The notes under the pieces: generated by a model
Told to the model about the DNA's origin: nothing
Seen by the model: only the letters and a program-made list of their open reading frames with translations
Database searches by the model: none
Program-made: the position numbers and the translations under genes
Shown here: positions 17,131 through 24,156 of the stretch, piece by piece
Position numbering within the stretch: the first letter of the stretch is position 1
Layout of the letters: each line of letters starts with the position of its first letter
Assembly (NCBI GenBank): GCA_030645675.1
Contig: JAUSLQ010000043.1
Span: 1-39,210 of the forward strand
Length of the DNA: 39,210 nt
Source of the DNA: Actinomycetota bacterium
GTDB lineage: Bacteria > Actinomycetota > Acidimicrobiia > Acidimicrobiales > Ilumatobacteraceae
Reading direction: 5' to 3'

Positions 17131-20100
17131 TCAGCCAGGGGCGGCCGCCAGCAGCCGCCACGTGTCGCCGGCCAGCAGGGCGACGGTGGTGGGCTCCACG
17201 GCGACCAGTTCGCTGCTGGAATCGACACCCAGGGCACGGGCCAACCCGAAGGCGTCGCCCACCTGCAGCCGGGCGGTGGCGATGCGGCGCTGTCCGTGCG
17301 GCACCTCCACGTCGGCCGTGCCGGCGGCGACGAACACCAGCTGGTCGGCCTCGGGCAGGCGGTCGCCCGGTTCCAGCCGCAGCTGCTGCATCGCGCCGAC
17401 GAGCGAGCCGAGCACTCCTGTGGGAAGGTTGGCGAACACGGCCACACGCGACAGCGCGGCCACCGGGTCGAAGCCAGGGGTCGGCACCGGCTCGTTCTGC
17501 TCGGCCCACAGCTCGGCATACAGCCCGTGCGCGGCGAGCAGCTGGGTGTGGGTACCTTGCTCGGCGATTCGGCCGGCGGCAACCACGAAGATCTGGTCGT
17601 AGTCGGCCACCGACGCCAGGCGGTGGGTGACCGCGATGGTGGTGCGGCCGACGGCCAGCCGCTGCAGGGTGTCCGCGATCTGCCGTTCGGTGTGCGGGTC
17701 GAGCGCCGAGGTGGCCTCGTCCAGCAGCAGCAGCCGCGGGTCGCGCACGACCGCGCGAGCGATCGCCACCCGTTGCCGTTGGCCGCCCGACAGCGCGGCG
17801 CCTCGCTCGCCCACCATGGTCTCGAAGCCGCGGGGCAGCCGCGTGGCGAACTCGTCGACCTCGGCGGTGGCCGCCGCTCGCCGCACCGCCGCGTCGTCGG
17901 CCGCTGGCGCCCCGATGGCGATGTTCTCGCGCACCGTCATGTCGAACAGGAACGAGTCCTGCATCACCACGCCCAGCTGCCTGCGCCACGAGCCGAGCTG
18001 CACAGTGGGCAGCGGCACACCGTCGACGAGCAGCTCGCCGCTGCTCGGGTCGTCCAGGCGCATGAGCAAGCGCATGATCGTGGACTTGCCGGAGCCGGAG
18101 GGCCCGACGAACGCCACCCGGCTGCCGGCGCGGATCGTGAGATCGATGCCGTCCAGCGCGAGGTGGCGACCGTTGTAGAGGAACCTCACATCGCGCAGCT
18201 CCAGGCGGTCGGTGAAGGGCGCCAGCACCGGTCGTTCGGGGTCGGCTGGGCGCTCGGGTTGCAGGTCGAGCACCTCCTGCACGCGGGCCAGGGCACCGCT
18301 CGCCTCTTGGAAGCCCTGGCCGAGGCCCACCAGCCCGGTGACCGGGCCCAGCACCTCGCCCACCACACCGAGGAACGCCACCAGGCCGCCGACGCTGAAC
18401 TCGCCCTGGAAGATCAGCCACGCACCGAAGCCCATCACCCCCAGCCGCAGCAGGGTGACGAACACGTTGACGGAGGCGCCGAACAGCTCGGAGAACAGCG
18501 CCATCCGCTTCTGGGAACGGAACAGGCGCGAGGTGGCATGTGCGAAGCGGGTGCGCTCGCGGTCGCCCAGGTCGAAGACCTTCACCACGGCCTGCGCCTG
18601 GTAGTTCTCCGCCGCAACCGTGAACAGGGTGCTGCTGTCCTCCTGAACGGCCGTGCTCTTCCGGCGAGCGCCGGCGCTCATCGCCTTGTAGATCACGGCC
18701 ACCACCGGCGCACCCAGCAGGATGATCAGCCCCAAGCGCCACTCCAGCGTGAGCAGGATCACCGACGACACCACCAACGACAGGCTCTGGAAGATGCCGG
18801 TCCCGATGGCCTTGGTGAGGCTGCTCTGCACCGCGCCCACGTCGCTGAACAGTCGCGACATCACCTCGCCCTGCGAGCGATTGGCGAACCACGACATCGG
18901 CAGGTCTTGCACGCGGTCGTAGATCTGCGCGCGCAGGTCGTTCACCACCGACGAGCTGATGTGGGTGCTCTGGTAGCTCTCGCGGATGGAGGCAGCCACC
19001 GACACCACGAACGCACCACCCAGCAGGCCCAGCAGGGTGACCACCTGCGCCCACTCGCCGCTGGGGATGGCCGTGTCGATCAGCTCGCGGGCCACGAACG
19101 GGTAGGCCGCCCCGAACGCAAGGCTGAACAGCATGTACCCGAAGACCTCGAACTGCCGCCACTTGTAGGGCTTCAGCAGCCGTACCGACAACCGGGCGAA
19201 GTCGCCCACCGGGATCACCGGCGCCTTGCCCTCCACGGCTTCGTCCAGCCACTGGCCCTCCAGCTGGCTGTAGGGCCGGCCGAAGATGCGGCGGAACGCT
19301 CCGTCGAACGAGTCGCCGCTCGCCGTGGCCGACAGCAGTTGCAGCACGGCCGCTTCGCCGTCGCGCCGCACCAGGTAGCGCACCCACGAGACCGCGACGG
19401 CGGCTCGCAGCTCTGCGGGTGGGTCGTCCAGGTCGACCCCGTCGTTGTCGGCGAGCAGTTCAGGGTCGTCGCTGGCGCCGGTGATGTGCAGGCCGTAGCC
19501 CTCTGCCAGCAGCACAGCCCGGGCGTCGGCGGGCGAGCCGGGTGCCGGCTCGGTGGCGAACAGCACAGCCAGCCCGGCGGCCGGGCTCTGTGCGGGCGAC
19601 TCGGCAGAGCACGCGACCCAGACCGAGTTGGTGATGTGCTCGACGGCGAACCCTCTTCGAGAGATCGCCGCCTCGCCATCTCGGGCCGGTAGGTACTCGA
19701 CCAGCCGCACCTGCACGGCCGGGCGACTGGCCTCGCTGCCCACCCCGCGCAGGCCATGACGTGCTTCGGCCGCCTGCGCCAGCACCTGTGGCGCCTCGAG
19801 TTCGGCGGCCGAGCCGCGCCGGAAGGAGACCACCACCCCGTGGCCGCGCAGCTCGCCCATCAGCGGCGCTCCGTCGTCGGTGGCGGGCAGCACCAGCAGT
19901 TCGGTGTCGCCGACCCGCACCACGCTGCCGACCGACAGGGGCGTGGCCGCCGCGACCGCAACGCCGTTGACGTAGGTGCCGAACGCGCTGCCCGCATCGA
20001 CCACCGTCGGCCATGCACCGCTGGTGTCGATCACCGCATGGCGGCGGGAGACGGCGGGGTCGGCGAACTGCACGTCGGTGCCGGCGCGACCGAGGGATAC

Positions 20101-20166
20101 CACCCCGTCGAGGCGCAACTCCCGAGGGGGATCGCCGGGTTCGGTCACGAGCAGTCGTTGCAGCAC
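17131..20166 (-). CDS. FHA - pseudo-peptidase - ABC exporter - cyclic-nucleotide-binding fusion
   Basis: A 1011-residue protein with four parts. Residues ~5-95 are an FHA phosphothreonine-binding domain (VSLGRAG, SRRHAVID, GSAFGTYVNG). Residues ~105-308 resemble a gluzincin 'peptidase MA'-type region (LLAEGYG, then SWVRYLVRRDGEAAVLQLL and SGDSFDGAFRRIFG), but the HExxH zinc motif is missing. Residues ~333-613 are a six-helix ABC exporter domain. Residues ~650-880 are the ATPase: GPSGSGKST, LSGGQRQR, LLLLDEATSALD, H-loop VTHR. Residues ~908-1008 are a cyclic-nucleotide-binding-like barrel (LRLEPGDRLPEADQLVFV). The frame is open up to ATG 20277, but those 37 codons are Arg/His-rich with many A/T-ending codons, so GTG 20166 is taken as the start. 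FHA suggests control by the Ser/Thr kinase encoded at 22774-24156. Exported substrate unknown. Confidence 0.88.
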   Translation of the reverse strand: MLQRLLVTEPGDPPRELRLDGVVSLGRAGTDVQFADPAVSRRHAVIDTSGAWPTVVDAGSAFGTYVNGVAVAAATPLSVGSVVRVGDTELLVLPATDDGAPLMGELRGHGVVVSFRRGSAAELEAPQVLAQAAEARHGLRGVGSEASRPAVQVRLVEYLPARDGEAAISRRGFAVEHITNSVWVACSAESPAQSPAAGLAVLFATEPAPGSPADARAVLLAEGYGLHITGASDDPELLADNDGVDLDDPPAELRAAVAVSWVRYLVRRDGEAAVLQLLSATASGDSFDGAFRRIFGRPYSQLEGQWLDEAVEGKAPVIPVGDFARLSVRLLKPYKWRQFEVFGYMLFSLAFGAAYPFVARELIDTAIPSGEWAQVVTLLGLLGGAFVVSVAASIRESYQSTHISSSVVNDLRAQIYDRVQDLPMSWFANRSQGEVMSRLFSDVGAVQSSLTKAIGTGIFQSLSLVVSSVILLTLEWRLGLIILLGAPVVAVIYKAMSAGARRKSTAVQEDSSTLFTVAAENYQAQAVVKVFDLGDRERTRFAHATSRLFRSQKRMALFSELFGASVNVFVTLLRLGVMGFGAWLIFQGEFSVGGLVAFLGVVGEVLGPVTGLVGLGQGFQEASGALARVQEVLDLQPERPADPERPVLAPFTDRLELRDVRFLYNGRHLALDGIDLTIRAGSRVAFVGPSGSGKSTIMRLLMRLDDPSSGELLVDGVPLPTVQLGSWRRQLGVVMQDSFLFDMTVRENIAIGAPAADDAAVRRAAATAEVDEFATRLPRGFETMVGERGAALSGGQRQRVAIARAVVRDPRLLLLDEATSALDPHTERQIADTLQRLAVGRTTIAVTHRLASVADYDQIFVVAAGRIAEQGTHTQLLAAHGLYAELWAEQNEPVPTPGFDPVAALSRVAVFANLPTGVLGSLVGAMQQLRLEPGDRLPEADQLVFVAAGTADVEVPHGQRRIATARLQVGDAFGLARALGVDSSSELVAVEPTTVALLAGDTWRLLAAAPG

Positions 20167-20340
20167 CGCGGGTCTCGCTTCTCTCGGTGGTCGGGTGTGG
20201 TGGGCGACGCGTCGATGCTCCGCGGGCACGGTGCCATGGGGAGTGGCGTCCGGTTGGCGTCGCCGAGCGACCGCCATGACGAACCGCGCCGGTGGGCATT
20301 ACACGTCGCCGAAAGAAGTCTTCCTCTGGTGCGCATCCAC

Positions 20341-20346
20341 TACTGT
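20341..20346 (+). promoter_or_regulatory. Predicted leaderless promoter (-10) of the sigma-factor gene
   Basis: TACTGT ends 7 bases before the GTG at 20354. It lies in the 187-base divergent region upstream of the ABC exporter gene, which otherwise holds a short symmetric GAAG-T-CTTC element. Confidence 0.5.
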
Positions 20347-20353
20347 CCGGCGG

Positions 20354-20932
20354 GTGGAGACGGGAGACACCGCCGAGCTCGTCGGCCGCGCGGCACGCGG
20401 CGACCGGTCTGCGTTCGACGTGCTGTACCGCCGCCATGCCCGGTCGGTGGCGGCCGCAGTGGCCAGCCGGATCTCCGGCAACGAGGACCGCGCCGATGCC
20501 GTGCAGGAAACGTTCCTGCGGGCGTGGAAGAAGCTCGACACGCTGCGCGACCCCGAGCAGTTCCTGCCGTGGCTGTATGCGATCGCAAGGAACGTGGCCA
20601 CCAGTGCGGGCCGCTCGAAGACCCGTACTGCGGCTGGCACGTTGAACGACGACATCAGCGCAGCGCCGGAGGCGATGGGCCCGGAAGAGCTGGCGGAGTT
20701 GGCTTCCTTGAGCGCCGCAGCAAAGGGGGCGATGGTGGTGCTGTCACATCGCGATGCCACCGTGATCACGATGGCGACCACGTTCGGCTTCGGCCCCGCC
20801 GAGATCGCAGCGGCGCTCGCGATCACCGAAGGCAACGCCGCAGTTATCCTTCACAGAGCACGTGTGCGGCTGCGCAAGGAACTGCTCGCACGCGGTGTCA
20901 TCGACGAGCGAGGAGCACCCTCGGATGTGTAA
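20354..20932 (+). CDS. ECF-like RNA polymerase sigma factor
   Basis: A 192-residue sigma-70-family protein. Region 2 is clear: FDVLYRRHARSVAAAVASRI, then DRADAVQETFLRAWKKLDTL and the -10-recognition helix FLPWLYAIARNVA. Region 4 is more divergent, without the usual LP-----V-L motif (LSAAAKGAMVVLSHRDATV), but it ends with a recognisable helix-turn-helix (FGPAEIAAALAITEGNAAVILHRARVRLRKEL). The GTG start is chosen from the -10 spacing; the frame continues upstream without a good start. It is divergent from the ABC exporter gene and 57 bases upstream of a small unknown protein, which could be its partner or target. Target promoters are not evident. Confidence 0.88.
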   Translation: METGDTAELVGRAARGDRSAFDVLYRRHARSVAAAVASRISGNEDRADAVQETFLRAWKKLDTLRDPEQFLPWLYAIARNVATSAGRSKTRTAAGTLNDDISAAPEAMGPEELAELASLSAAAKGAMVVLSHRDATVITMATTFGFGPAEIAAALAITEGNAAVILHRARVRLRKELLARGVIDERGAPSDV

Positions 20933-20989
20933 TCCGGGCCGCCCGACAGCGTCGTGCAGGATGAAGTGCAACGACCAGAAAAGATCGAG

Positions 20990-21229
20990 ATGAGCACGAA
21001 CGACGATCCCGCAGAGCGCCTGATGGAGAAGGTCAAGCAGTTCAACGAGTCGCTGGCCGCCGACGAGCGGGCGCTGTTCGCCGCGCTGATCGCGCCGGGC
21101 ATCGCGAGGGCCCTGGCACCCGACGACGAGGTGGAGGGCTACGGCCTCACCGAGTGGATGCCTACGTCGCTGCCCGAGCAGCTCACCGAGCAGATCCGCA
21201 CGTCGAACATCACCGTCAACGGGCTCTGA
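20990..21229 (+). CDS. 79-residue cysteine-free protein of unknown function
   Basis: Not a family I recognise. The acidic, helical N-terminal half (DDPAERLMEKVKQFNESL) leads into an aliphatic helix (ERALFAALIAPGIARALA) and then a tail with EVEGYGLTEWMP and the end SNITVNGL. There is no cysteine, no signal peptide and no membrane helix long enough to be sure of. The ATG at 20990 is taken as start; GTG at 20954 (12 codons earlier) is possible. It follows the sigma gene by 57 bases. Its last 14 bases overlap the end of the convergent protease gene. The layout (helical leader, short polar tail, nearby cytosolic protease and exporter) is compatible with a precursor peptide, but an anti-sigma or adaptor role is equally possible. 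Confidence 0.65.
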   Translation: MSTNDDPAERLMEKVKQFNESLAADERALFAALIAPGIARALAPDDEVEGYGLTEWMPTSLPEQLTEQIRTSNITVNGL

Positions 21230-22127
21230 TCGCGGCCGTCGTCGCGGTGCCGCGCGCACCCACCGCTGCGATCGTGCGCGTTCGGCTGACGCGGCCCGCC
21301 ACGTCGAGCGGTTCGTCGCCGCGCACGTTTGCTGCGCACGCCCACAGGGCCGACTTCAGCTGGAACGGTCGCAGGCCCGGGTGCTTGGAGCGGATCAGTG
21401 CGGCGATGCCGGCGAGATGCGGCGCGGCGAAGCTGTTGCCGGTGACCCGCGAGTAGCCGAGGTCGCGCCAGGCCACCTCGATGTCGATGCCGCGGGCAAG
21501 GAACTCGGTGGGCGGCTGCGGGTTGGCGTGGTAGCGGAACGGGTCGGCGGTGGTGTTGCACGCGACGCTGAGGGCCGATGCGTACAGCGAGGGATACGAC
21601 GGTGTGTTGCGGTTGTTGGCGGCGGTGACGACCAACGAGTTGCCGAAGTACGCGCGGTCGCACAGTTCGTGGAACGTCAGCGCCCAGTCCCGCAGCCGGG
21701 TGCCCAGCGACAGGTTGATCACGTCGTAGCCGTGGTCGATGGCCCACGCCAGAGCGGCCACGAACTGGCCGACCTTGCCCGTGTTGTTGCTGCCCAGCAC
21801 CCGCAGCGAGGTGATGGTGGCGCCGGGCGCGAGCTGGTGGATGATCGATGCGCAGGCGGTGCCGTGCCCGTAGGCGTCGGTGTGCGGCCCCGTCGCGGGC
21901 ACCACCTCTCCGTCGGCGCCGAGCTCGAAGCACACGGCTGCTGACTGGTCGATGCAGCCCTCCAGCGCCGGGTGCTCGGCGTCGATGCCGGAATCGATCA
22001 CCGCCACGCGCACCCCCGCGCCGGTGGCCCCGCCCCACGCCCACTGAGGCGTGACGTGCATCAGCTCGGGTGGGTGCTGGTGCTGCAGAATCGCCGAGGC
22101 CTTCGCCCACGCGGGTGTGACCGTCAT
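21216..22127 (-). CDS. Cytosolic subtilisin-like (S8) serine protease
   Basis: A 303-residue S8 protease with the full triad: Asp45 in VAVIDSGID, His88 in DAYGHGTACAS and Ser232 in TGNSFAAPHLAG. The oxyanion-hole Asn is in VVTAANNRN. The usual GTS of the serine motif is GNS here. It has no signal peptide and no propeptide, so it should act inside the cell, like the leader- or partner-cleaving S8 enzymes of peptide biosynthesis clusters rather than secreted degradative subtilases. The catalytic domain nearly fills the protein. ATG at 22127 has GGAG 8 bases ahead. It follows the GAF gene by 16 bases on the same strand and converges on the 79-residue protein gene with a 14-base overlap. Confidence 0.92.
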   Translation of the reverse strand: MTVTPAWAKASAILQHQHPPELMHVTPQWAWGGATGAGVRVAVIDSGIDAEHPALEGCIDQSAAVCFELGADGEVVPATGPHTDAYGHGTACASIIHQLAPGATITSLRVLGSNNTGKVGQFVAALAWAIDHGYDVINLSLGTRLRDWALTFHELCDRAYFGNSLVVTAANNRNTPSYPSLYASALSVACNTTADPFRYHANPQPPTEFLARGIDIEVAWRDLGYSRVTGNSFAAPHLAGIAALIRSKHPGLRPFQLKSALWACAANVRGDEPLDVAGRVSRTRTIAAVGARGTATTAAIRAR

Positions 22128-22143
22128 CTGCGTCGCTCCGTGG

Positions 22144-22665
22144 TCACGACGCGCCCAGCATGCTCGTGAGCGCCGAGGCCACGATGCGGTAACGCTCCGG
22201 GCTGGCGGAGTGCAGGCGGCGCAGTTCGCCGGCCAGGTCGTCGGGACTGGGCACCGCGGCCTCGCCCGCGTCGAGGGCCGACTCGGCCACGTCGGCCAGC
22301 AGCGACACGATCTCGATGTCGTCGATGGTGAACGCGCCCTGCTCGGCGTGGCGCGCCAGCTCCAGCGCCGCCGCGCCGTCGCCGAACGGCACCGTCAGCA
22401 GCCACGCCGGCATGCCGATGCACCCGCCTGCGCCGTCGGCGGCCGTTTCGCTGGGAGCGATGGAGCGGCTGGCGGGCTGGCCGGTGGCGATCGCAATAGC
22501 GGCGGGAGCCCGCTGGTCGACGCGGTCGCCGGGGGAGGCGCCGGTGGCCCCGCCGGCGGCAGCCACCACGAGCACGTCGGCTTCGGCCACCACCAGCCAG
22601 CCAGACGAGGCGCCGGTGGCGTCGAGCGCAGCCTTGACAGTGGCGGTGAGCACAGAACGGTTCAT
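22144..22665 (-). CDS. GAF-domain protein
   Basis: A 173-residue protein that looks like a single GAF sensor domain. It begins with the typical helix and first strand (VLTATVKAALDATGASSGWLVV), continues with strands containing VLVVAAAGG and AIAIATGQPASR, has a central WLLTVPFGDGAAALELA strand pair, and closes with the family's ending helix (GAFTIDDIEIVSLLADVAESAL). A short C-terminal helix follows. No catalytic domain is attached. The frame stays open far upstream, but those codons are antisense to the kinase gene; ATG 22665 is the first start on this side of the 8-bp repeat array. It is probably co-transcribed with the protease 16 bases downstream. The ligand is unknown. Confidence 0.75.
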   Translation of the reverse strand: MNRSVLTATVKAALDATGASSGWLVVAEADVLVVAAAGGATGASPGDRVDQRAPAAIAIATGQPASRSIAPSETAADGAGGCIGMPAWLLTVPFGDGAAALELARHAEQGAFTIDDIEIVSLLADVAESALDAGEAAVPSPDDLAGELRRLHSASPERYRIVASALTSMLGAS

Positions 22666-22675
22666 GGAAGCCGTG

Positions 22676-22681
22676 ATCGTA
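22676..22681 (-). promoter_or_regulatory. Predicted -10 box for the GAF-protease operon
   Basis: TACGAT on the minus strand, 10 bases before ATG 22665. The 8-bp tandem array begins 6 bp upstream of it, so the -35 region would lie inside the repeats. Confidence 0.4.
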
Positions 22682-22686
22682 GATGC

Positions 22687-22750
22687 TGTCGTGTTGTCGT
22701 GTTGTCGTGTTGTCGTGTTGTCGTGCTGTCGTGCTGTCGTGCTGTCGTGC
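22687..22750. repeat. 8 x 8-bp tandem array between divergent promoters
   Basis: Four copies of TGTCGTGT (22687-22718) followed by four copies of TGTCGTGC (22719-22750), with no other mismatch. It occupies most of the 78 bp between the predicted -10 boxes of the GAF gene and the kinase gene. The two-block pattern suggests recent expansion by slippage. There are no spacers, so it is not a CRISPR array. Confidence 0.97.
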
Positions 22751-22759
22751 AGGCGAAGG

Positions 22760-22765
22760 TAGTCT
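22760..22765 (+). promoter_or_regulatory. Predicted leaderless promoter (-10) of the Ser/Thr kinase gene
   Basis: TAGTCT ends 8 bases before the GTG at 22774, and the tandem array ends 9 bp upstream of it. A -35 at normal spacing would fall within the array. Confidence 0.5.
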
Positions 22766-22773
22766 CGCGGCCT

Positions 22774-24156
22774 GTGACGCTGGATCGACGGGCAATGGAG
22801 GCGGCGCTCCCGGCATACGAGGTCGGCGCCGAGTTGGGGCGTGGCTCGTTTGGTGTGGTGTACCGCGGCACGCACAAGCAACTGCATCGCACGGTGGCCA
22901 TCAAGCAGCTGCCACGAGCGCTGGCCGCCGACCCCGGTGTGCAGTCCCGGTTCCTCGCCGAGGCTCGCACCGCTGCCGCGTTGCAGCACCCGAACGTGGT
23001 ACCGGTGTACGACTTCGTCGAGCGCGACGGCCTGTTCCTGATGATCATGGAACTGGTCGACGGTGGCACCTTCGGCGAGCGCCTGGCCGGCGGGGGAGTG
23101 ACGGCTGCAGAGGCATGTCGCGTCGTCGCCGGCGTACTGGATGCCCTGCACTACGCCCACGATCGCGGGGTGGTGCACCGTGACGTGAAGCCCGACAACA
23201 TCCTGATCGCCGCCGACGGCACGCCCAAGCTGGGCGACTTCGGCATCGCCAAGATCGTCGGCTCGTCGTCGGGCGCCACCGCCGCCGGGGCGGTGATGGG
23301 CACGCCCGCCTACATGGCTCCCGAAGTGGCGATGGGCGAGGAGGCCACGGCCGCCTCCGACGTGTACTCGTGCGCCGCGGTGCTGTACGAGGCGCTCAGC
23401 GGCTCGTTGCCGCACCCGCCGGCGGCCACCGCCACCGCCACCCTGGTGCGCATCGTCAACGATCCACCGCGCCCATTGCTGGAAGTGGCGCCGAGGGTCG
23501 ACAGCCGACTGGAGCAGCTGGTGATGCGGGCGCTGTCCAAGGCGCCGGCCGGGCGTCCGGCGTCTGCTGCCGAGTTCGCCGCCGAACTGCGCCAGGTGTC
23601 GGGCAGCGCCTCCTCGGCGGCGATGGCGGCGATGGCTACCGTCGCGCCCCGTGGTGTGCCGAAGGTGGAAGCGCCCGCGGTCGCGTCCCGTGGCTCGAAG
23701 CGATGGCTGGTGGCCGTCGCTGCGGTTGTCGCAGTGCTGGGCGGGGTGGTCGCGGTGGTGGCGCTCGGCAGTGACGACGCCGGTTCCACGCTCACCGACA
23801 CCCTGCCCACTGACACCCTGCTCTCTGACACCCTGCCCACTGCAACGACTGTCTCCGAATTCGCCCCGGCCACAACCGGTGAGACCGATGCTCCCGCCTC
23901 CAGCACCTCGTCGGCAGAAGGCCCCACCACCACCGCCGAGTTCGCCTCCACCTACGCCGAGGCCGTGGCCATGTTCAAGTTCGGCTGCGACGCGCAAGGT
24001 GTGTCGGAGGCCCAGTGCGAGTGCATGATCAACGGCATCACCGATCAGCTCGGGCCCGCCCGCCTGATCCGGGCGATCAACGTGATGCGTGCCGAGGGGA
24101 ACTCCAGCGCCGACGTCACCGACATCGTCCAGGACTGCATCGTCACGGTCGACTGA
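22774..24156 (+). CDS. Transmembrane Ser/Thr protein kinase (PknB-like) with Cys-containing outer domain
   Basis: A 460-residue eukaryote-like kinase. Glycine loop LGRGSFGVVY (21-30), Lys44 in VAIKQL, catalytic loop HRDVKPDN (Asp137), DFG at 155-157, and MAPE; the domain ends near residue 275. A short linker leads to one membrane helix (about 310-331, WLVAVAAVVAVLGGVVAVVA). Outside it there is a Ser/Thr/Pro-rich stalk containing a 3 x 15-bp repeat, and then a ~65-residue domain with four cysteines (405, 415, 417, 455) instead of the PASTA repeats of PknB. This is the likely sensor. GTG 22774 is favoured by promoter spacing; ATG 22795 (MEAALPAYEVG) is the alternative. The FHA domain of the nearby ABC exporter is a plausible reader of its phosphorylation. 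Confidence 0.93.
   Translation: MTLDRRAMEAALPAYEVGAELGRGSFGVVYRGTHKQLHRTVAIKQLPRALAADPGVQSRFLAEARTAAALQHPNVVPVYDFVERDGLFLMIMELVDGGTFGERLAGGGVTAAEACRVVAGVLDALHYAHDRGVVHRDVKPDNILIAADGTPKLGDFGIAKIVGSSSGATAAGAVMGTPAYMAPEVAMGEEATAASDVYSCAAVLYEALSGSLPHPPAATATATLVRIVNDPPRPLLEVAPRVDSRLEQLVMRALSKAPAGRPASAAEFAAELRQVSGSASSAAMAAMATVAPRGVPKVEAPAVASRGSKRWLVAVAAVVAVLGGVVAVVALGSDDAGSTLTDTLPTDTLLSDTLPTATTVSEFAPATTGETDAPASSTSSAEGPTTTAEFASTYAEAVAMFKFGCDAQGVSEAQCECMINGITDQLGPARLIRAINVMRAEGNSSADVTDIVQDCIVTVD
23797..23841 (+). repeat. 15-bp repeat in the kinase stalk
   Basis: Three in-frame copies of GACACCCTGCCCACT (the middle one ends CTCTCT) at 23797-23811, 23812-23826 and 23827-23841, encoding DTLPT/DTLLS/DTLPT in the extracytoplasmic stalk. 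Copy changes would alter stalk length without a frameshift. Confidence 0.9.

Follow-up and report, generated by a model that had tools for sequence, protein, structure and literature searches.

A candidate cassette for the maturation and export of leader-bearing small proteins in an actinomycetote, with a linked sigma factor

The stretch analysed here, which we call the window (G000:C54), is the 39,210-nucleotide contig JAUSLQ010000043.1 from an actinomycetote assembly (GCA_030645675.1) of 4.09 Mb that is about 80% complete. It carries six neighbouring genes, encoding an FHA-bearing ATP-binding cassette (ABC) exporter, an extracytoplasmic function (ECF) sigma factor, a 79-residue protein, an S8 subtilase, a GAF-domain protein and a Ser/Thr kinase (Table 1). 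An earlier sequence-only reading had described these genes as a signalling-export circuit, and all six are confirmed to be present and placed as first described, with the qualification that Pfam does not find PF00027 in the cyclic-nucleotide-binding (CNB)-like end of the exporter even at E ≤ 1 and that the GAF match is borderline. Of the 37 proteins called in the window, 16 were scanned with Pfam. The protease carries the Asp, His and Ser motifs that, together with its PF00082 match, mark an S8 subtilase, and by eye its N-terminus is not hydrophobic; the reading frame of the 79-residue protein is convergent with the protease gene and overlaps its end by 14 bases.

Table 1. Genes and repeat at the locus, with positions in the window
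Feature	Position	Strand	Basis or remark
Exporter: FHA, peptidase-MA-like domain lacking HExxH, ABC membrane domain, ATPase, degenerate CNB-like end	17131..20166	-	Pfam
ECF-type sigma factor	about 20354..20932	+	PF04542 and PF08281 above cut-off
Small protein of 79 residues with a leader, assigned to the sigma-linked class ('type A'); Cys-free	20990..21229	+	
Predicted cytosolic S8 subtilase, proposed leader peptidase	21216..22127	-	PF00082, 108.9 bits (cut-off 21.8)
GAF-domain partner gene of S8	22144..22665	-	PF13185, 28.4 bits (cut-off 28.6), borderline
Hanks-type Ser/Thr kinase, one hydrophobic stretch and 4-Cys tail	22795..24156	+	PF00069, 177 bits (cut-off 31.7)
Tandem octamer TGCTGTCG, 8.4 copies, 96% matches	22684..22750		In gap between divergent GAF and kinase genes

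Relatives of the protease were collected by scanning contigs of GTDB species with an S8 profile, which returned 158 confirmed relatives, the best 80 of which were kept; the record titles of the S8 relatives name Actinomycetota, Chloroflexota and others. Outside the window we distinguish 21 close loci, referred to as core loci (L003, L105 and L018-L036), and 61 distant loci (L037-L097). Genes were called with a purpose-written script, which overlooked the peptides of L003 and L019 and, in some loci, the S8 gene, and the tblastn neighbourhood queries included gap signs from aligned rows; the S8 positions they gave agree with the S8 profile scan. Over 82 loci (83 minus L084, whose hits are identical to those of L083) 79 S8 genes were called, 70 of them with all three Asp/His/Ser text patterns, and because 71 of the 79 have a GAF gene directly upstream, on the same strand and less than 300 bp away, we regard the GAF-S8 pair as the constant core of the system. 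S8 hits of 43-45% identity in G008, G027, G030 and G031 were set aside as another subfamily because in L014-L017 tblastn recovered S8 only, with no kinase match.

Around this pair the neighbourhood recurs. Of the 21 core loci, 15 hold an exporter as well as GAF and S8 (in L032 the gene caller merged GAF into the exporter, and GAF was placed there by tblastn), and a single stretch carries exporter, GAF, S8, sigma factor and leader peptide in L019, L022, L025, L026, L030 and L105, as it does in the window. In a set of 61 genomes, that of the window among them, the small protein is found in two, S8 in three at E ≤ 1e-100 and in seven at E ≤ 1e-25, and the exporter in two at E ≤ 1e-120. Among 395 genomes of the class, the S8 profile matches seven at E ≤ 1e-70; in six the match reaches E ≤ 1e-129, and in the seventh, G031, it is weaker. 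The leader-peptide profile also matches seven genomes. The exporter profile matches 274 genomes at E ≤ 1e-15; among the matches listed, those that extend through the MA-like part come from six genomes, the remainder stopping by profile position 168, in or just after the FHA domain. The six genomes with a strong S8 match and the six with an MA-like exporter all fall within the seven leader-peptide genomes, counts that are descriptive only since the profiles contain sequences from some of the same 395 genomes. The conserved co-occurrence anticipated by the sequence-only reading is thus borne out for exporter, GAF, S8, sigma factor and small protein, and it indicates that the six window genes are not chance neighbours.

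The 79-residue protein belongs to a family defined by its leader. In the window protein the leader spans about residues 6-45, followed by a candidate junction, DDEVEGYG, at about residues 45-52 and by a conserved C-terminus; iterated profiles give the leader pattern ..L..KL..F...L..DER.LL.., ending in (D/E)(V/T)xG(F/Y/H) in most members, so that the conserved cleavage site looked for in the family has a candidate. Leader-family peptides were found in 26 of 83 loci, in several copies in L027 and L037, and the sequences after the leader are very unlike one another, being Trp/Tyr-rich in L037, Ser/Gly-rich in L034 and repeated in L042 (VAAHQMT six times) and L050. The family thus shows the leader, junction and variable core of precursors of ribosomally synthesized and post-translationally modified peptides (RiPPs), the window member having a conserved C-terminus instead. 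All ten precursors scanned fell short of the NCBIfam cut-offs, and such genes are therefore probably missed in current annotation. The small-protein profile had no useful match among solved structures (best E 0.43), and a HopA1 hint on the 79-residue protein (Pfam, 14.8 bits against a cut-off of 22.7) was dismissed as chance.

The junction is also seen beyond the family leader. It occurs in 25 of 106 short S8-near proteins that lack the leader, against 10 of 163 that lie further from S8 (the 'far' set), a difference (p 4e-5) that takes no account of relatedness and is descriptive only; shuffling gave a mean of 1.8 and a maximum of 7 in 1000. Six of the 10 far hits resemble such peptides by eye (L036, L047, three in L067, and L071). 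Those in L067 (8683-9682) are three small proteins with junctions DVAGY, EVAGY and EVSGY directly upstream of an MA-like exporter, and the L047 and L067 peptides look by eye like what we take to be NHLP leaders. Repeats of D(V/T)xGH are found in S8-near short proteins of L073, L082, L083, L086, L093, L094 and others; near GAF-S8 in Naasia lichenicola a 154-residue protein has nine junction-type repeats (L083 and L084, with identical hits). In four mycobacterial loci (L053, L062, L072 and L074) a short protein of this leaderless kind has a Trp/Tyr-rich C-terminus after SEVEGY or SDVEGY; these are GAF-S8-CNB loci with an ABC gene, their peptides are very similar to one another, and L053 also has a redoxin.

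Within the family, the window protein falls into a class linked to sigma factors. A full-length profile of the window peptide retrieves ten peptides at E ≤ 2e-11 that reach position 69 or beyond, seven of which were used to build it. For nine of these ten an ECF sigma gene lies within 315 bp, the exception being L022 (5.8 kb), against one of 31 other leader peptides (L153, 332 bp), a set in which some peptides lie on short contigs and in which L149-L154 had been chosen for the leader peptides they contain. The C-termini of the sigma-linked class are alike, most ending near V/I-x-V/I-x-GL, and are conserved across families, which makes the window peptide most likely a signal, or a sentinel through which processing and export would be coupled to the ECF sigma factor, and not variable cargo.

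The exporter, whose start was taken as GTG 20166 by judgement over an ATG at 20277, has FHA, ABC_membrane and ABC_tran matches all above the Pfam cut-offs, with a single FHA stretch (44.5 bits against a cut-off of 20.7). Between FHA and ABC lies a domain overlooked in the sequence-only reading, seen as a weak Peptidase_MA_2 match of 15.1 bits in Pfam; on the isolated N-terminus PF13485 scores 17.3 bits against a cut-off of 32.4, and it matches 6 of 14 members at E ≤ 0.1. An MA-like profile finds 24 called proteins at E < 1e-5, namely the window exporter, 15 in core loci and eight in distant loci, and in none of the 24 does the matched region contain H[ED]xxH. The window exporter thus has neither the HExxH motif nor the above-cut-off PF13485 match of an active member of the Peptidase MA superfamily. 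A search of its N-terminus against solved structures gave 58 matches at E ≤ 1, nearly all FHA proteins, including the Rv1747 FHA domain (E 1.1e-12), and none was an MA-type peptidase by name. We think the MA-like domain is probably a binding domain that lost its zinc site, and that it probably binds the leader.

The small-molecule input previously proposed through the exporter's degenerate CNB-like end is less well supported. A profile built from that end overlaps a PF00027 match in L087, and the exporter of L022 reaches 26.7 where the cut-off is 27.5. In the distant loci CNB genes often lie nearby. The window also encodes a separate small cyclic-nucleotide-binding protein (1936-2361; PF00027, 69.5 bits), and this protein and genes beside distant GAF-S8 loci match the same CNB profile.

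Kinase control, also part of the earlier circuit, finds less support, and the kinase appears to be more loosely linked to the cassette than the other parts. The window kinase, whose gene adjoins the GAF gene, has HRD and DFG motifs, and tblastn matches to it were found in 10 of 20 core loci (L003 and L018-L036), seven at ≥45% identity, in L105 too, and in four of the 61 distant loci, two of which (L047 and L091) are LanKC-like. The 4-Cys tail is shared with L105, the tails elsewhere differ, and the window genome has nine Pkinase places. In L022 and L033 (Pfam) and L035 (profile) S8 is fused to a kinase-like domain (L022:4160-5983, L033:918-2666, L035:10001-11791), which supports a functional link between S8 and kinase. 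By eye the fused domain has HGD in place of HRD, DVG in place of DFG and an Arg where Lys is usual, changes that would be compatible with either an active or a dead kinase. The octamer array between the divergent GAF and kinase genes of the window may be a promoter element of variable length.

That the locus is not a standard RiPP cluster, as first proposed, fits the scanned window genes and needs amending for its relatives, in some of which the same GAF-S8 module lies in LanKC or radical-SAM clusters. No RiPP-modifying enzyme was found among the 16 of 37 window proteins scanned, which suggests that the window product may be unmodified, and such enzymes are present in some relatives' clusters. 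LanKC-type synthetases (RamC_N, kinase and LANC_like) stand beside GAF-S8 in L046, L047 and L057, and L091 has a protein similar in look to LanKC by eye. Radical-SAM genes occur in the GAF-S8 loci L025 and L026 (Pfam) and L022 (profile), and in L025 three Cys-rich peptides with junctions EVEAF, EVEAF and EVETF precede the radical-SAM gene.

No description of a GAF-S8-exporter peptide cassette was found in the open-access literature searched, a scope that leaves preprints and most subscription papers outside. The closest parallel is with the Qhp system, which matures the small subunit of quinohemoprotein amine dehydrogenase: QhpE frees QhpC of a 28-residue leader while it is still in the cytosol, and QhpF then exports it, that is, a cytosolic subtilisin-like protease taking off a small-protein leader ahead of ABC export (PMC7876137). 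QhpE (NF049966) is also the best NCBIfam match of the window S8, followed by the type VII mycosin TIGR03921 (111.6 bits against a cut-off of 278.75), but at 118.3 bits S8 stays below the QhpE cut-off of 165; the 79-residue protein, unlike its Qhp counterpart, is Cys-free, no radical-SAM enzyme such as QhpD is among the 16 window proteins scanned, and GAF, FHA and sigma partners are not mentioned for Qhp in the available text (PMC7876137). The C39/NHLM exporters TIGR03796 and TIGR03797 likewise export leader-bearing peptides by ABC transport, but the window exporter scores far below both cut-offs (343.9 against 853.3 and 331.9 against 709.4), has no C39 domain in its Pfam list at E ≤ 1, and carries in its N-terminal part an MA-like domain without HExxH, cutting being assigned to the separate S8. 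Rv1747-PknF resembles the locus in pairing an FHA-bearing ABC exporter with a linked Ser/Thr kinase gene, but Rv1747 has two FHA domains where the window exporter has one, and S8, GAF, an MA-like domain and a peptide are not mentioned for it in the available portion of PMC3908365. NisP, ElxP and the PatA/PatG subtilases are, like the proposed S8, serine proteases that mature peptides, ElxP being cytoplasmic; the main text of a 2023 review of RiPP proteases treats NisP, ElxP, PatA/PatG and AprE and mentions neither GAF nor QhpE (PMC10885120). The FxSxx-type units of conflict systems combine a small diverging precursor with a protease and sometimes radical SAM, but, in section 24 of PMC7159879, that protease is a zincin metallopeptidase and not an S8.

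Taken together, the gene content, the recurring neighbourhood, the leader and junction conservation and the sigma linkage argue for a cassette for peptide maturation and export, which we hold to be rather probable. Each small protein would start out with a conserved leader that closes in an acidic [DE][VT]xG[FYH] junction, S8 with its GAF partner would cut in the cytosol at or near that junction, and the C-terminal part would leave through the ABC exporter, whose MA-like domain sits where other peptide exporters have their peptidase. The membrane kinase might gate the activity, as might the FHA, GAF and CNB-like domains. The best reading of the cassette is a leader protease and exporter working like QhpE and QhpF while not being a Qhp member. 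We infer cleavage, export, gating and any contact with the sigma factor from sequence, and our confidence is fair in the cassette as a system and low in the exact role of the 79-residue protein. For that protein we tentatively entertain, as an unlikely but specific option, a sentinel that shares the cargo leader and would hold the ECF sigma factor through its C-terminus, so that cutting by S8, export or both would let the sigma factor read the flux through processing and export. Such a sentinel would resemble the exported anti-sigma factor FlgM, with a RiPP-style leader, an ABC exporter and kinase/FHA gating in this case.

Several observations weigh against the cassette. The earlier proposal that the small protein is processed by a cytosolic S8 and then exported mostly holds, given the recurring neighbourhood and the junction, and runs up against three genomes: in G053 the peptide, sigma factor, GAF and S8 are present and the exporter has no match; in G088, which carries exporter, peptide and sigma factor, S8 is missing genome-wide even at E ≤ 1e-20 and the 13.6 kb stretch shows no called GAF gene; and G043, which lies outside the 395-genome set, has exporter, GAF and S8 with no match to the 79-residue protein, its contig ending at the exporter. 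The small protein is found in 0 of 14 genus mates (G001-G014) as well. The MA-like exporter domain was found in only eight of the 61 distant loci, in fetched DNA whose flanks vary, and no short gene with the strict motif was found within 3.5 kb in 48 of 83 loci by a finder that missed the known L003 and L019 peptides. Of 119 permuted control motifs, with a mean of 2.1, one reached 21 of 106; the L042 and L050 repeats are AAH/EAH and not strict GH; and the window genome, at its completeness of about 80%, has a single leader peptide, a search up to E ≤ 5 adding none.

Part of this evidence could be read as pointing to a role for the 79-residue protein as a regulator dedicated to its neighbouring ECF sigma factor, an anti-sigma or co-factor whose leader likeness would permit its removal by proteolysis and which would not be exported. 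We consider this unlikely but worth keeping in view: the close sigma linkage and conserved C-terminus of the full-length relatives agree with it, as does the retention of peptide, sigma factor and S8 in G053 without an exporter match, and the partner sigma factors of L003, L025, L030 and L105, though not that of the window, end by eye in a C..H..C..C stretch that resembles what we take to be zinc anti-sigma motifs. An exporter in 15 of 21 core loci, and a leader and junction held in common with variable, cargo-like peptides, argue for the cassette instead. Less likely still, and in our view improbable, is that the small proteins are inhibitors of S8 or propeptide-like partners acting in trans while the exporter carries something else. 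Their tight linkage to S8, down to the overlap of the two genes in the window, would suit such a role, which sits poorly with C-termini that vary or are repeated, with the presence of several copies at some loci and with a junction that recurs in a LanKC-linked peptide.

We give yet less weight to a role in conflict or defence, with S8 freeing a toxic or alarm peptide in the cell. Peptide-processing units are known in conflict systems according to section 24 of PMC7159879, and in L053 (Mycolicibacterium) a RyR-like protein, borderline at 27.3 bits against a cut-off of 27.4, lies beside GAF, S8 and peptide; TIR-like neighbours are also seen by eye. No such genes are present among the 16 window proteins scanned, and PADLOC matched kinase, subtilase and ATPase models only, with none for the RyR-like protein. 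Chance proximity without joint function could invoke the absence of the small protein from same-genus genomes and the three relatives that each lack one member, but repeated co-occurrence strongly disfavours it and we regard it as very improbable indeed.

If the cassette reading is correct, it would provide a leader peptidase that is portable and has a short junction motif to search for, serving lanthipeptide-type, radical-SAM-linked and apparently unmodified peptides; many unannotated small-peptide loci would become minable, a product maturation route would be suggested for clusters without a known protease, and peptide export would be seen to be coupled to a sigma factor in an unusual way. 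A separate observation concerns a leader peptide located elsewhere in the G240 genome (L154, G240:C9, 5043-8411), which adjoins two JmjC_2 proteins in what may be an unusual peptide-oxidising cluster.

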